Program-made: the position numbers and the translations under genes | Origin: Gemmatimonadota bacterium | GTDB lineage: Bacteria > Gemmatimonadota > Gemmatimonadetes > Gemmatimonadales > Gemmatimonadaceae | Direction of reading: 5' to 3' | DNA length: 38,106 bases | NCBI GenBank assembly: GCA_016218305.1 | Contig: JACREJ010000075.1 | Span: 1 to 38,106, forward strand | Part shown: positions 3,357-32,102 of the stretch, piece after piece | How the letters are laid out: each line of letters begins with the position of its first letter | Position numbering within the stretch: the stretch's first letter is position 1 | Notes under the pieces: generated by a model | What the model saw: the letters and a program-made list of their open reading frames with translations, nothing else | The model's database searches: none | Told to the model about the DNA's origin: nothing

Positions 3357-3431
3357 AGGAGTGGAGGGAGGAGGGAGGCGGGAGGAGGCCGACCGTCCGC
3401 CTCTTCCCGCCTCCCCCCGCACTCCACTCCT
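3357..3431. repeat. Heptamer-repeat hairpin upstream of rpsL
   Basis: The spacer after plsB is almost entirely purine on the left and pyrimidine on the right. The left arm holds the 7-nt units GGAGGGA, GGAGGGA, GGCGGGA (3363-3383). The arm at 3374-3389 pairs with 3399-3414 at 15 of 16 positions around a 9-nt loop, and an outer pair AGGAGTGGAG/CTCCACTCCT (3357-3366 with 3422-3431) extends the hairpin. It lies 47 nt before the rpsL -35 box. It could terminate plsB transcription, although the run after it is C-rich rather than a U-tract. Confidence 0.7.
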
Positions 3432-3478
3432 CCCCCTCCCAGACCTCTGCACTCCTCCTCCAACCAGCCCCTCAGCCA

Positions 3479-3507
3479 TTGACCCTGTCCCCCCTCCCCG
3501 CTATTAA
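3479..3507 (+). promoter_or_regulatory. Sigma-70-type promoter of rpsL-rpsG
   Basis: TTGACC (3479-3484), a 17-nt spacer and TATTAA (3502-3507) form a good housekeeping promoter. Transcription should begin near 3514, giving a leader of about 68 nt before rpsL. The AT-rich -10 stands out in an otherwise GC-rich spacer. Confidence 0.6.
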
Positions 3508-3581
3508 TTCAGGCTCTGTTCCGTGCCACCCATCCTGGGTGATCCACGTAGGACCAGATTCACGAACAGCATCAGGATACG

Positions 3582-3965
3582 ATGCCGACGATTAACCAAC
3601 TCGTCCGGCAGAGCCGCCGCGACGTCGCCCGCAAGGCGAAGGCTCCGGCTCTGAAGGAGAATCCGTTCAAGCGGGGCGTGTGCACTCGCGTGTACACGAC
3701 CACCCCCAAGAAGCCGAACTCCGCGCTCCGCAAGGTGGCGCGTGTCCGCCTCACCAACGGCTTCGAAGTCACCGCCTACATCCCCGGTGAAGGCCACAAC
3801 CTCCAGGAGCACTCGATCGTGCTCATCCGCGGCGGCCGCGTGAAGGATCTGCCGGGCGTTCGCTACCACATCGTGCGCGGCAAGCTCGACGCCTCGGGCG
3901 TGAACGGCCGCAACAAGAGCCGTTCCAAGTACGGCACCAAGAAGCCGAAGGCCGGGGGTAAGTAA
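3582..3965 (+). CDS. rpsL: 30S ribosomal protein S12
   Basis: S12 sits at the decoding centre of the 30S subunit and controls tRNA selection accuracy. The 127-residue protein is nearly universal in sequence: M-P-T-I-N-Q-L-V-R start, T-T-T-P-K-K-P-N-S near 39-47, G-G-R-V-K-D-L-P-G near 84-92. Lys43 and Lys88, where streptomycin-resistance substitutions occur in other bacteria, are both Lys, the wild-type state. The start has AGGA upstream. It is the first gene of a two-gene unit with rpsG (3-nt gap), with its own promoter at 3479-3507. Confidence 0.98.
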
Positions 3966-3968
3966 GCC

Positions 3969-4439
3969 ATGAGTCGCCGCAAAACCGCCGTCAAGCGCAC
4001 CATCCTGCCGGATGCGCGCTACGATTCCCAGACCGTCTCGAAGTTCATCAACGTGCTGATGTACGCCGGCAAGAAGTCCACCGCCGAGCGCATCTTCTAC
4101 GGCGCGATGGACCTCGTCGAAAGCCGCACCAGCCAGCCGGGCGTCAACGTCTTCAAGCAGGCGCTGGCCAACCTGAAGCCGGTCGTCGAGGTGAAGAGCC
4201 GCCGCGTCGGCGGCGCCACCTACCAGGTGCCGGTCGAAGTGCGTCCCGAGCGCCGTACCGCGCTCGCCATGCGCTGGCTCATCTCGTACTCGCGCGACCG
4301 CAACGAGAAGTCCATGGCCGAGAAGCTCGCGGCCGAGGTGATCTCGGCGTCGAAGGGCGAGGGCAATGCGGTCAAGAAGAAGGAAGATACGCACCGCATG
4401 GCCGAGGCCAACAAGGCCTTTGCGCACTACCGGTGGTAA
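3969..4439 (+). CDS. rpsG: 30S ribosomal protein S7
   Basis: S7 is the primary binder of the 16S rRNA 3' major domain and nucleates assembly of the 30S head. The 156-residue length is that of the short bacterial form. [10 protein letters not shown] opens it, followed by the family segments [10 protein letters not shown] and A-M-R-W-L. GGGGGTAAG next to the rpsL stop serves as the ribosome binding site. In many bacteria fusA and tuf follow directly; here a terminator hairpin and an opposing gene intervene. Confidence 0.98.
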
Positions 4440-29856: not shown

Positions 29857-29857
29857 G

Positions 29858-30892
29858 ATGCGCCGCGCCGTCGTGGATCTGCGGTCGCCGTCGCCCGCCT
29901 TCCGGCTGCCCGACGCGGTCGCCGACCGCCTGCGTGCGGCCGCGCTTCCCGGATGGGAGCTGGTGGTCGTGGGCGAGGAGAACGATGCGCTTGAGGGGTC
30001 GCCGCGCGGTCCCGGGCCCGAGGCGATGGTCGCCGTGGCCACGGCCGAGGTCTATTTCGGCTGGGGGATGCCGGCGCCGTTGTTCCACGCGGCCCCCCAG
30101 CTTCGGTGGGTGCAGTCGGCGCTGGCGGGGACGGGGGCATTGCTGGCCGTCCCCGAGATGCGCGATGGCCCGTGCCTGTTCACGAACGCGGCCGGCATCT
30201 ACGGACCACCCATCGCCGAGACCGTCCTCGCCGGAGTGCTGCATTTCACGCGCGCCCTCGATGTGGCGGGCTCGCTGCAGGCGGAAGGACGGTGGGATGC
30301 CGCGGCGTTCGGGACGGCGGCGGCGATGGTGCGCGAAGTGGGCGAACTGCGCGTGCTCGTGGTGGGGGCGGGCGGGCTCGGGTCGGAGATTGGCGCCCGG
30401 TTTGCGGCGCTGGGGGCCACCGTCGTCGGGTTGCGGCGCGTGCCGTCCAAGGGGTGCCCTTCCGGCTTTGTGCGCGTGGCGGGGCTCGACGCGTTGGAGA
30501 CGGAGCTTGGGGGGGCCGATGTCGTTGTTCTGGCGGCGGCGCTCACTGGCGAGACACGCGACCTGCTGAACGCGCGGCGGCTGGCGCTGCTGCCGCCGGG
30601 GGCGATCGTGGTGAACGTGTCGCGCGGCACCATGCTCGACGAGACAGCGCTGTACGAAGCCCTGGTGAGCGGGCGGCTGCGCGGGGCGGTGCTCGACGTG
30701 TTCGCCCGCGAACCACTAGCCCCAGAGAGCCCGCTGTGGCAACTTCGTCAGGTTCTCGTGACACCGCATGTCAGCGGGGTCTCGCCGCGCCGCCTATGGG
30801 AGCGGCTGGCGGCGCTCTTTCTCGGGAACTGGCAGGCGTACGCGGAGGGGCGACCCCTCCGCAATCTCGTGGACAAGGCGCTGGGGTACTGA
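29858..30892 (+). CDS. D-isomer-specific 2-hydroxyacid dehydrogenase
   Basis: An NAD(P)-dependent oxidoreductase reducing 2-keto acids to D-2-hydroxy acids, or the reverse. The 344 residues contain the nucleotide-binding V-V-G-A-G-G-L-G-S-E-I-G near 167-178 and the catalytic triad in N-V-S-R-G (Arg), D-V-F-A-R-E-P-L (Glu) and T-P-H-V-S-G (His). The substrate-binding N-terminal domain is divergent. The sequence fits the GyaR/SerA superfamily rather than a named enzyme. It starts one base after the mgtC-like stop, so the two are probably cotranscribed. Confidence 0.88.
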   Translation: MRRAVVDLRSPSPAFRLPDAVADRLRAAALPGWELVVVGEENDALEGSPRGPGPEAMVAVATAEVYFGWGMPAPLFHAAPQLRWVQSALAGTGALLAVPEMRDGPCLFTNAAGIYGPPIAETVLAGVLHFTRALDVAGSLQAEGRWDAAAFGTAAAMVREVGELRVLVVGAGGLGSEIGARFAALGATVVGLRRVPSKGCPSGFVRVAGLDALETELGGADVVVLAAALTGETRDLLNARRLALLPPGAIVVNVSRGTMLDETALYEALVSGRLRGAVLDVFAREPLAPESPLWQLRQVLVTPHVSGVSPRRLWERLAALFLGNWQAYAEGRPLRNLVDKALGY

Positions 30893-30899
30893 CGGGACG

Positions 30900-32066
30900 A
30901 TGGAGAAGATCATCAAGGCCGCGGTGGATCGAGGAGCGTCGGACCTGCACATCAAGGCAGGCGACGTCTTTCGTGCGCGCATTGACGGTCGGCTCGTCCC
31001 CCTCACCAAGCAGGCGCTGAGCCCCGAGCAGACCAAGGCGATCGCGCTGCGGCTGATCCCGAACGAGGAGGACCGCGCCAAGATCGACAAGCTCAACGAC
31101 TACGACTGCTCGTGGGGGGCGCCGGGCATCGGGCGCTTCCGCGTGAACATCCTGCGGCAGCGGTCGAGCTTCATGATCGTGATGCGCGTCATCCCGTTCG
31201 AGGTGCCGACGTTCGAGAAGCTGAAGATGCCGGAGGTGATGCGCCGCGTCACCGAGGCGGAGCGTGGGATGATCCTCGTCACCGGCGTCACGGGCTCGGG
31301 CAAGTCGAGCACGATGGCGGCGATGATCAACCACATCAACTCGTCGCGCAACAAGCACATCGTCACGCTCGAGAACCCGATCGAGTTCCTGCACCGCGAC
31401 CTGCAGAGCAGCATCACGCAGCGCGAGATCGGCGTGGACACGGAGAGCTTCCGCAGCGGCCTGCGCGCCGCGCTGCGCCAGGACCCCGACGTGATCCTCA
31501 TCGGCGAGATGCGAGACGCCGAGACGGTGGACACCGGCATGAAGGCGGCGGAGACGGGGCACCTGCTCCTCTCGACGCTGCACACGCCCGACGCGCAGAG
31601 CACCATTCTCCGCATCATGGCGATGTTCCCGCCCGAGGAGCAGGACGTGGTGCGGGTGCGCCTCGCCGAGACGCTGCACGCGGTCGTGAGCCAGCGCCTG
31701 CTGCCGCGCGCCGACGGACACGGGCGCGTCGTGGCGGCCGAAGTGATGATCGTCACGGCGACTATCCGCGACCTGATCCTCGAGGGCGAGAAGATCGGCG
31801 AGATCCGCGACTACATCGCCGAGGGGCGCGAGCAGTACGGGATGCAGACCTTTGACCAGCACCTCAGCGACCTCGTGCAGCAAGGGCAGGTGACGTTCGA
31901 GGTGGCGCTTGCCGCGGCGACGCGTCCCAGCGACTTCCAGCTCAAGATGCAGACCTTCCGCCGGCGCTCGACGACCGTCAAGGGCTCCGACATGCCCGCC
32001 GAAGCGTCCAAGCCCGACCAGGGCTTCCAGAGCGGTTCGGGGATGGATTTCCTCAACGGCCAGTAG
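30900..32066 (+). CDS. pilT: Type IV pilus retraction ATPase, PilT family
   Basis: PilT hexamers disassemble type IV pili, powering twitching motility and DNA uptake. The start at 30900 gives M-E-K-I-I-K-A-A-V-D-R-G-A-S-D-L-H-I-K, the usual PilT N-terminus, and 388 residues; the frame from 30768 lies in the preceding gene. Walker A G-V-T-G-S-G-K-S-S-T begins at 129. The Asp box (V-T-L-E-N-P-I-E), Walker B (D-P-D-V-I-L-I-G-E-M-R-D) and His box (L-L-S-T-L-H-T) are intact. The A-I-R-N-L-I-R-E motif of true PilT is altered to T-I-R-D-L-I-L-E-G, so a PilU-like role is possible. No other pilus genes are nearby. Confidence 0.93.
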   Translation: MEKIIKAAVDRGASDLHIKAGDVFRARIDGRLVPLTKQALSPEQTKAIALRLIPNEEDRAKIDKLNDYDCSWGAPGIGRFRVNILRQRSSFMIVMRVIPFEVPTFEKLKMPEVMRRVTEAERGMILVTGVTGSGKSSTMAAMINHINSSRNKHIVTLENPIEFLHRDLQSSITQREIGVDTESFRSGLRAALRQDPDVILIGEMRDAETVDTGMKAAETGHLLLSTLHTPDAQSTILRIMAMFPPEEQDVVRVRLAETLHAVVSQRLLPRADGHGRVVAAEVMIVTATIRDLILEGEKIGEIRDYIAEGREQYGMQTFDQHLSDLVQQGQVTFEVALAAATRPSDFQLKMQTFRRRSTTVKGSDMPAEASKPDQGFQSGSGMDFLNGQ

Positions 32067-32074
32067 CGGCAGTT

Positions 32075-32102
32075 ACCGTCTACCGTCGACCGTCTACCGT
32101 CA
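32075..32102. repeat. Four tandem ACCGTCN heptamers before the dapA-like gene
   Basis: ACCGTCT, ACCGTCG, ACCGTCT, ACCGTCA repeat in exact 7-nt register, 8 nt after the pilT stop and 14 nt before the next ATG. The unit differs completely from the GATGGGA type but keeps the same period. The spacer has no clear Shine-Dalgarno apart from these repeats. Confidence 0.8.

Follow-up and report, generated by a model that had tools for sequence, protein, structure and literature searches.

How can a tandem repeat keep its place and its period while its letters are exchanged? The question is raised by a 38,106-nt contig (JACREJ010000075.1 of assembly GCA_016218305.1, hereafter "the window", meaning this whole stretch) from a Gemmatimonadota bacterium of the family Gemmatimonadaceae, in which spacers, several of them in a ribosomal protein operon, carry arrays of a 7-nt unit. 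That 7-nt repeats are over-represented in bacterial spacers is known from earlier work, with no settled account of their origin or upkeep (PMC4692102). Here it is shown that the arrays of the window's genus keep their places, their core and their period, while the remaining letters of the shared heptamer, GAYGGNN, follow genome-wise dialects. Places outlast speciation, while each species tends to its own spelling at several sites together. Compared between related genomes, the ribosomal operon shows place, period and core as the lasting features and the variable letters, agreeing across loci, as the changing ones, and this separation makes it testable what carries the unit between loci and why the G-rich arm comes first. 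If general, heptamer dialects could serve as fast genome-wide strain signatures in metagenomes.

GAYGGNN arrays in the window

Period-7 arrays are located at 3363-3388, 9251-9283, 9676-9705 and 32074-32101 by both Tandem Repeats Finder (TRF) and a lag scan, and at 16613-16644 by TRF alone. The original prediction had counted five sites of this period and a degenerate sixth; the five are recovered, and the sixth, at 27008-27069, shows mixed TRF periods of 6, 7, 13 and 19. Four of the six (9251, 9676, 16614 and 32074) are arrays of the single degenerate heptamer GAYGGNN on either strand, and the units GATGGGA and ACCGTCN, previously read as different, are this one motif on opposite strands. The sites at 3357 and 27008, which had been grouped with them, are not GAYGGNN arrays and belong to other dispersed palindrome families. 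The GAYGGNN arrays are the following, with ribosomal protein names assigned from gene order and sequence.

9251..9285, plus strand: left arm of a hairpin between tuf (ends 9239) and rpsJ (starts 9366), with units GATGGGA, GACGGGA, GATAGGA, GATGGGA, GATGGCC
9303..9334, minus strand: right arm of the 9251 hairpin, its units on the minus strand; hairpin fold -58.2 kcal/mol, z -7.1
9676..9705, plus strand: single G-rich array (GACGGGA, GATGGGA, GAGGGGA) directly 3' of the rpsJ stop codon, with no right-arm array
16614..16641, plus strand: left arm of a hairpin in the spacer that follows rpsN (ends 16607) and precedes rpsH (starts 16732)
16644..16673, minus strand: right arm of the rpsN-rpsH hairpin; hairpin fold -39.9 kcal/mol, z -4.2
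32074..32101, minus strand: single array of four TACCGTC units (GACGGTN on the minus strand) between a pilT-like gene (ends 32066) and a dapA-like gene (starts 32117)

The complementary right arms noticed earlier are real at 9251 and 16614, where none of 200 shuffles folds as well, and the 3357 palindrome also folds (-80.9 kcal/mol). The stretch with the single 9676 array folds at -18.2 (0/200 shuffles as good), and the one with the single 32074 array shows no fold excess (39/200 as good). The 9676 array lies upstream of a conserved leader-like stretch before rplC, and the 32074 array matches another spacer of the host genome at 96.6% over 29 nt.

Lag-7 segments (score 10) occur in 6 of the 17 spacers of the window, where 0.2 segments are expected from Markov shuffles, and none is seen in the 35 kb called as coding. 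A 228-kb sample of the host genome, drawn from 20 contigs or contig starts without regard to hits, shows a smaller enrichment in spacers, with 10 segments in 22 kb (9 of 131 spacers) versus 2.8 in shuffles; an earlier sample of this genome, in which 51 lag-7 segments were found, was biased, 18 of its 20 regions having been picked for hits. In the sample drawn without regard to hits, 206 kb of coding sequence hold 11 segments. In the same sample, lag 13 (12) and lag 11 (10) match lag 7 (10), because other repeat families are present. Genes were called by a simple codon-usage script trained on the genus, whose output was compared with known genes for the window alone; the calls are less sure in other phyla. 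Two further weak period-7 TRF rows lie at 35551-35567, in a spacer, and at 37757-37775, inside a called gene (score 31).

Conserved places and genome-wise dialects

The comparison set comprises 11 genomes of the window's genus, all Gemmatimonadota metagenome-assembled genomes (MAGs), including the host genome (G000); the other genomes, also numbered with G, represent further genera or groups. The relatives are species representatives, many with gaps, the MAGs being incomplete, and the nearest relative of G000 is 95.4% identical over the ribosomal region. Orthologous spacers were recovered from 10 of the 11 genomes for tuf-rpsJ and for rpsJ-rplC, and from all 11 for rpsN-rpsH. At least two full GA.GG units are found in 30 of these 31 locus-genome combinations, the exception being tuf-rpsJ of G003, with one unit. 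Arrays at tuf-rpsJ and rpsN-rpsH mostly form hairpins across the genus, and rpsJ-rplC carries the left array only, none of 10 genomes having more than a single facing unit there.

The letters, in contrast, change by genome: GATGGGA in G000, GATGGCN in G001 and G008 (tuf-rpsJ), GACGGTN in G010. The variable letters have a similarity of 0.163 for different loci of the same genome (28 pairs), of 0.057 for the same locus of different genomes (136 pairs) and of 0.046 where both differ (271 pairs). The same-genome value was reached in none of 2000 permutations of genomes within loci, the sole way in which kinship among genomes was handled. At position 6, G dominates in G000 (68%), C in G001 (73%) and T in G010 (82%). 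In seven genomes, the GC content of the spacers was measured and ranges from 0.64 to 0.68. The choice of G, C or T at this position is thus not explained by composition, which is rejected as the cause of the dialects. In whole genomes, the GATGGGA-type pattern (at most two mismatches; pattern counts here and below include overlapping matches) is found 247 times in G000 (2.0 Mb) and 1 to 60 times in the ten other genomes of the genus.

An array and its position are kept while its letters are not, which differs from a fixed, slowly evolving sequence. The proposal that the repeats reflect copying "rather than descent" is not supported in its second half, since arrays of the genus occupy the same spacers and have a core in common; descent acts together with copying.

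Core and spacing of the heptamer

Three GAYGG cores at 7-nt spacing give 3033 overlapping matches in the 11 genomes of the genus (41 genomes searched), versus 6 for the same core triple at 8 nt and 27 at 6 nt. The two latter patterns were searched in 13 genomes each, G015 and G016, of other genera, adding 0 (8 nt) and 10 (6 nt). A reversed-pattern control gave 871 matches in the genus and came near the forward counts in G004 (87 vs 94) and G005 (88 vs 87); 34 of 40 of its matches in the samples checked overlap a GA.GG pair at 7 nt. Because GACGGTA-type arrays hold the reversed pattern by construction, the 6- and 8-nt spacings were used as control instead.

Among 85 arrays found in samples of the genus by lag-7 score, without using the core, 75 have a consensus of exactly GAYGGNN on either strand; 49 of the 85 come from G000, whose sample includes hit-selected contigs, and G007 gave none. 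Mismatches to an array's own consensus amount to 3-5% at G, A, G and G, and to 10-17% at Y, N and N. Within the genus, the arrays show strict spacing and a single main core, and they are rare in genes and in spacers between divergent genes.

Such constancy could reflect a trans-acting DNA- or RNA-binding factor that reads the core at 7-nt spacing and whose specificity drifts, its sites following and giving rise to dialects. Core positions 2-5 times less variable than the others, a near-absolute spacing, the avoidance of divergent spacers and the letters common to different loci of one genome would all suit such a factor, although variable letters differ even within single arrays and unrelated cores occupy the same spacers in other genera. 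Its strand-specific RNA-reading version is ill-suited to the single arrays of tandem spacers, which run either way, the coding strand being the G-rich one in 28 cases and the C-rich one in 21. A binding factor is considered unlikely overall.

How arrays change and how letters may travel

The rpsN-rpsH spacer of G008 differs from that of G001 and G007 by the absence of exactly one 7-nt unit, the flanks being identical but for a few substitutions. In 77 arrays of at least five units, sharing of variable letters is 0.394 between neighbours and 0.278 at five or more units apart. The neighbour value was reached in 0 of 3000 order shuffles, as was that of interior units alone (38 arrays). Neighbouring units are alike, which is the mark of stepwise local duplication. 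Together with a period that outlives letter changes across genera, these results bear out the copying process first suspected.

Slippage, also put forward at that time, fits the 7-nt steps and the like neighbours, and alone does not explain the letters common to the loci of one genome. This is where independent slippage at each locus falls short: it posits a mechanistic preference for 7-nt steps with no communication between loci, yet loci within a genome are more alike than orthologous arrays, and the wording of a second family, the GAT family described below, shifts alike at two orthologous spacers between G000 and G006. The exact 7-nt indel and the likeness of neighbours agree with it, as does a polymerase-footprint hypothesis for heptamers reported in PMC4692102. 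We regard this already disfavoured explanation as quite improbable.

Since local duplication alone cannot give letters common to distant loci, ectopic copying between loci may act in addition. The explanation that we favour, at roughly even chances, is that of long-lived, array-armed intergenic elements evolving in concert through 7-nt slippage and ectopic copying. These elements would be dispersed and intergenic, with arms made of arrays of a short degenerate unit, GAYGGNN in the main family of the genus. They would occur as single arrays or as palindromes with the G-rich arm first, mostly in tandem and convergent spacers, and would be retained through speciation. Slippage would add or remove units in 7-nt steps, as the exact one-unit indel and the clustering of like neighbours suggest, and unit variants would be copied between loci by ectopic gene conversion or by template switching at forks. 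Core letters and spacing would persist while the variable letters drift into a genome-specific dialect. For the palindromic elements, the most likely effect would be a stable RNA hairpin downstream of the stop codon, which the cell would tolerate or put to use as a 3' or inter-cistronic structure.

Several points weigh against evolution in concert. In a set of 126 arrays, of which 65 come from G000 and in which the two arms of one hairpin count separately, dialects stand out strongly only at position 6 (1 of 2000 shuffles), the signal being modest for the triplet of variable letters (34 of 2000), for position 3 (47) and for position 7 (66). G001 holds two wordings, two of its loci reading GATGGCN and the remaining one GACGGGA. 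Arms paired in one hairpin (0.591) resemble each other only slightly more than arms taken from separate hairpins of their genome (0.548; 48 of 5000 shuffles), and copying across the hairpin is therefore weak. Among species representatives, the closest at 95.4%, a conversion tract was never caught in the act. A trans-acting binder under selection could equally yield a conserved core and shared dialects, and neither slippage nor conversion accounts for the G-first polarity described below or for the preference for 7.

A purely hairpin-templated correction of one arm by the other was also considered and is rejected, paired arms being just slightly more alike than arms of other hairpins.

Genomic context and polarity of paired arms

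Context was surveyed in spacers of 30-800 nt from 20 genomes and 10 further loci, the G000 part including hit-selected contigs. Arrays are found in 75 of 571 tandem spacers, 14 of 101 convergent ones and 5 of 150 divergent ones. A complementary partner arm was detected in 32 of these 94 array-bearing spacers. The G-rich arm leads in every one of the 32, and reading from the opposite strand leaves this order unchanged. Likewise, pairs of GAYGG arrays on opposite strands are G-first in 30 of 30 cases within the genus. The G-first polarity of paired arms is shown by these counts.

An inverted-repeat scan gives the same picture, with 35 G-first, 7 neutral and no C-first stems in 91 array spacers. 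In 601 array-less spacers, which include other periodic families, 62 are G-first, 70 neutral and 13 C-first. Array-rich genomes of other genera yield 10 G-first, 0 C-first and 1 neutral in array spacers, and 10, 3 and 7, respectively, in array-less ones. No clear order is seen in the hairpins of array-poor genomes (92 spacers; 8 G-first, 6 C-first and 4 neutral). In other phyla, array-less spacers show 4 G-first, 2 C-first and 4 neutral stems, and three array spacers gave one neutral stem.

Selection at the RNA level for a hairpin, acting as a 3' stabiliser or operon insulator and leaving letters free as long as the arms pair, would fit the very stable folds and the depletion in divergent spacers. 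It is nevertheless very unlikely as the driving force: no partner arm was detected in 62 of the 94 array-bearing spacers, the conserved rpsJ-rplC array hardly has a facing unit, arm-to-arm coupling beyond the genome dialect is weak, and pairing by itself demands neither a period nor shared dialects. As for known RNA classes, no Rfam match at gathering scores was found anywhere in the window, and a known RNA family is rejected for its sites. Intrinsic terminators require a T run directly after the stem; the hairpins ending at 9334 and 16673 are followed by AGCATCCC and ACTTTCAC, neither of which is a T run, and both are rejected as such terminators.

The polarity could be accounted for by a trans-acting "repeat writer", which in each genome would re-synthesise a genome-specific unit at many loci, e.g., by adding G-rich units onto 3' DNA ends before joining. 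If true, palindromes would have the G-rich arm first, extension of only one end would leave a single arm, and dialects would switch across a whole genome. It is held to be a long shot. The reverse transcriptase family RVT_1 was found in 1 of the 11 genomes of the genus and is rejected as a general writer; the writer would therefore be a polymerase or template outside the families searched.

Other periodic families in the same genomes

The two remaining sites of the window are members of other dispersed families, as follows.

3326..3461, no strand assigned: G-first palindrome copy (self-inverted match) with a loose 7-nt rhythm, not GAYGGNN; includes the GGAGGGA run at 3363-3388
27008..27069, no strand assigned: member of the GAT family, with GGGATTGGGAGCTCGGAT exact at 27011 and GAT or a variant every 6-7 nt

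The first is a dispersed palindrome of ~140 nt, whose other copies in the G000 sample are 69-81% identical. Its tandem GGAGGGA run is confined to the 3357 copy, none of the 12 other copies checked having it. Six of these 12 score at least 10 at lag 7, and the family therefore has its own loose 7-nt rhythm.

The GAT family is marked by GAT, or a triplet close to it, at steps of 6 to 7 nt. G000 and G006 were compared over three 20-kb stretches, each taken from the hit-selected sample; among their 33 orthologous spacers, lag-7 arrays are found in neither genome in 29, in both in 2 and in G006 only in 2. GAT-family palindromes occupy the same two spacers in both genomes, those of G000 resembling GGGATTGGGAGCTCGGAT and those of G006 resembling GGATATGGACTCAGGAT. 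When two mismatches at most are allowed, the G000 wording is found 17 times in 585 kb of G000 and not in 148 kb of G006, and the G006 wording 7 times in the latter and not in the former, all in distinct contexts; elsewhere, the G006 wording occurs once in G001 and once in the remaining samples of the genus. This family behaves as the GAYGGNN arrays do in showing dialects. Adjoining the 27008 site, a second dispersed element of ~150 nt (27140-27289) is 71-80% identical to stretches in L144, L117 and L143.

Families with 10-, 11- and 13-nt (6+7) units coexist with the heptamer arrays in the same genomes, and at one spacer an 11-mer palindrome in G001 corresponds to a 10-mer palindrome in G006; unit lengths of these families, and of the 8- and 9-nt versions below, were read by eye. 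The period, called constant in the original prediction, is not universal. The 11-nt family (GAGAGACAACA, e.g., L127 2595-2645) is found at dozens of places in G006 and G001 and dispersed in G000, with many matches 90-100% identical, unlike the heptamer dialects. The 10-nt arrays (GAGAACGGCA) are seen in G006, and G000 has degenerate related sequence (spacers L121 2255-3592 and L112 14760-15247). Of the GAGAACGGCA pair, 12 copies are present in the sample of G006 and none in those of G000, G001, G010 and the rest of the genus; these arrays are perhaps a third family with dialects.

Dispersed palindromes of this kind raise the possibility that mobile elements, resembling repetitive extragenic palindromic (REP) sequences or miniature inverted-repeat transposable elements and moved by an enzyme in trans, repeatedly insert genome-specific copies. 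The ~140-nt family, the near-identical 11-mer copies in three genomes and a short plsB-rpsL spacer of G009 that lacks the palindrome (by eye) are in line with this scenario; array positions, in contrast, are conserved across the genus. The REP-associated tyrosine transposase (RAYT) domain, PF01797 (Y1_Tnp), the one transposase family searched, is found in 2 of the 11 genomes of the genus (G006 and G010) and 13 of the 41 searched, not in the array-rich G015 and G016, and gave no match in G000 (91.7% complete). RVT_1 is present in 7 of the 41, the MAGs being incomplete. Mobile palindromes as the source of the arrays are deemed improbable, and RAYT-driven mobility is rejected, given its 2 carriers in the genus.

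Arrays beyond the genus

The lag scan of relatives rests on small samples outside G000 (14-100 kb per genome); five all-N stretches and the short loci L217, L222, L233, L235 and L237 were omitted, and G012, G018 and G020 have no row. In another scan, L233 is lag-7 positive in 2 of 4 spacers. Lag-7 arrays are found in 13 of 33 sampled spacers of G015 and 12 of 37 of G016, other lags from 4 to 15 giving at most 1 except the harmonic 14 (11 and 9, respectively). Their units include GTGACTC, GTGAATC, GAGGTCA, GTGACTA and GCTATTG, and genome-wide GAYGGNN matches number 34 in G015 and none in G016.

Among 19 Gemmatimonadota loci (L031-L049), 29 of 108 spacers are lag-7 positive (other lags 0-9, except 14 with 19). 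Outside this count, three less similar loci labelled Gemmatimonadota or Gemmatimonadetes (L052, L059 and L075) have none in 8 spacers. Across 58 loci from further groups, most of them in different phyla, 8 of 338 spacers are positive, other lags giving at most 3 except 14 (8). No lag-7 spacer was seen in the sampled stretches of G013, G014, G019, G021, G022, G027, G033 and G040. In G040, a GGGAGAT-type pattern has 28 whole-genome matches, and G033 carries CGGTNNN heptamers in one spacer. Outside the strict 7, the tuf-rpsJ spacer holds an 8-nt version in G011 and a 9-nt version in L038. Further heptamer units (GATTGTT, GGTTACT, GTCYTGA, GGAATYT and TTGGTGR) are observed among loci L061, L062, L065, L076 and L095, whose hosts are an Ignavibacteria MAG, a Bacteroidetes MAG, an unplaced bacterium, a Fibrobacteres MAG and Parapedobacter composti.

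Comparison with known repeat systems

Cyanobacterial short tandemly repeated repetitive sequences, associated with the name of Mazel, are reportedly tandem heptamers, like the arrays described here, and we know of no dialect comparison for them. Gene conversion was once proposed for the spread of REP palindromes and of bacterial interspersed mosaic elements (BIMEs), which, to our knowledge, have no internal 7-nt arrays. The present elements resemble REP/BIME in being dispersed extragenic palindromes and depart from those with RAYT transposases in that PF01797 was not found in 9 of the 11 genomes of the genus. REPs bear a GTAG or CGTC tag at one end (PMC3733652).

The closest description concerns GGGAATC heptamers in Xanthomonas and GGGGA(C/T)T heptamers in Nostoc, which are intergenic and under-represented between divergent genes (Rehm et al. 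2015; PMC4692102). In Xanthomonas, 83% are at the same site in a sister species, with extensive variation in length and sequence, and two species have 70 and 75 heptamer pairs in "convergent orientation", Nostoc having few pairs (PMC4692102). This orientation is taken to be the G-arm-first order seen here. The paper relates the repeats to G-quadruplexes, cites polymerase slippage as an idea, leaves the functional role of the heptamers to be elucidated, and mentions heptanucleotides in Calothrix (PMC4692102). Like these repeats, the arrays of the genus are tandem 7-nt units concentrated in spacers and rare between divergent genes, and, as in the Xanthomonas pairs so read, paired arrays put the G-rich arm first and single arrays also occur in both. 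The genus unit GAYGGNN, and the further units elsewhere, differ from the GGGNATC or GGGGA(C/T)T consensus. As far as described there, the Xanthomonas and Nostoc unit stays GGGNATC-like, whereas here the unit at a given spacer differs from species to species and from genus to genus, its letters agree across the loci of a genome and sibling families have other periods.

A G-quadruplex (four G-tracts of at least three) is possible, judging by the letters, for GATGGGA/GACGGGA arrays. GGG is present in 0-33% of the sampled units of the ten other genomes of the genus, and in none of the GTGACTC, GTGACTA and GCTATTG arrays of other genera; a G-quadruplex is therefore unlikely as a shared trait. As a conserved function it is rejected, GGG being in a minority of units in those ten genomes.

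In the P6b element of the Nostoc tRNA-Leu intron, a named class of degenerate heptanucleotide repeats pairs into a hairpin and varies in copy number (PMC3488679). Degenerate heptamer copies also pair into hairpins here, at sites dispersed in protein-gene spacers, unlike P6b, which lies inside one intron. The TAACTGA direct repeats of Beggiatoaceae form dispersed intergenic heptamer arrays, also in ribosomal protein operons (PMC4679880). In contrast with the present arrays, they have one fixed unit, are nearly always direct (one indirect case is reported) and lie mostly just upstream of start codons (PMC4679880). Among the matches listed, none concerns such repeats in Gemmatimonadota, which does not establish their absence from print; unit replacement at conserved places with cross-locus agreement of the new unit was not found described among the open-access matches listed.

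Additional features of the window

The host genome measures 2.0 Mb in 116 contigs and is 91.7% complete, the window being contig C25. Its RpsC is best matched by Gemmatimonadota MAGs, with 94% to ZH-Oct18-98. The genes are ordered plsB-like, fusA, tuf, a long ribosomal protein operon, secY, trpS, pilT-like and dapA-like.

Heptamer arrays lie less than 500 bases from several contig ends of G000 (C1, C6, C26, C39 and C106), and therefore may break short-read assemblies and be under-counted. Near the end of the window, positions 37796-38005 (210 nt) have a reverse match of 97.6% near the end of contig C23 (L144), which is either an end common to the two contigs or a repeat at which the assembly broke.

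Two leader-like conserved stretches are located downstream of arrays. One, before rplC, reads AACAGTCCAACGGCC...GCGGCCGCGACT (about 9740-9808) and follows the rpsJ-rplC array; the other, before rpsH, reads CTTCCTACAGGTCCG...CGGAAACCAGAGGAG (16674-16731) and follows the rpsN-rpsH arrays. Both lack an Rfam match at gathering scores and are found across the genus and partly beyond, a distribution that makes them possible candidates for undescribed ribosomal protein leaders.

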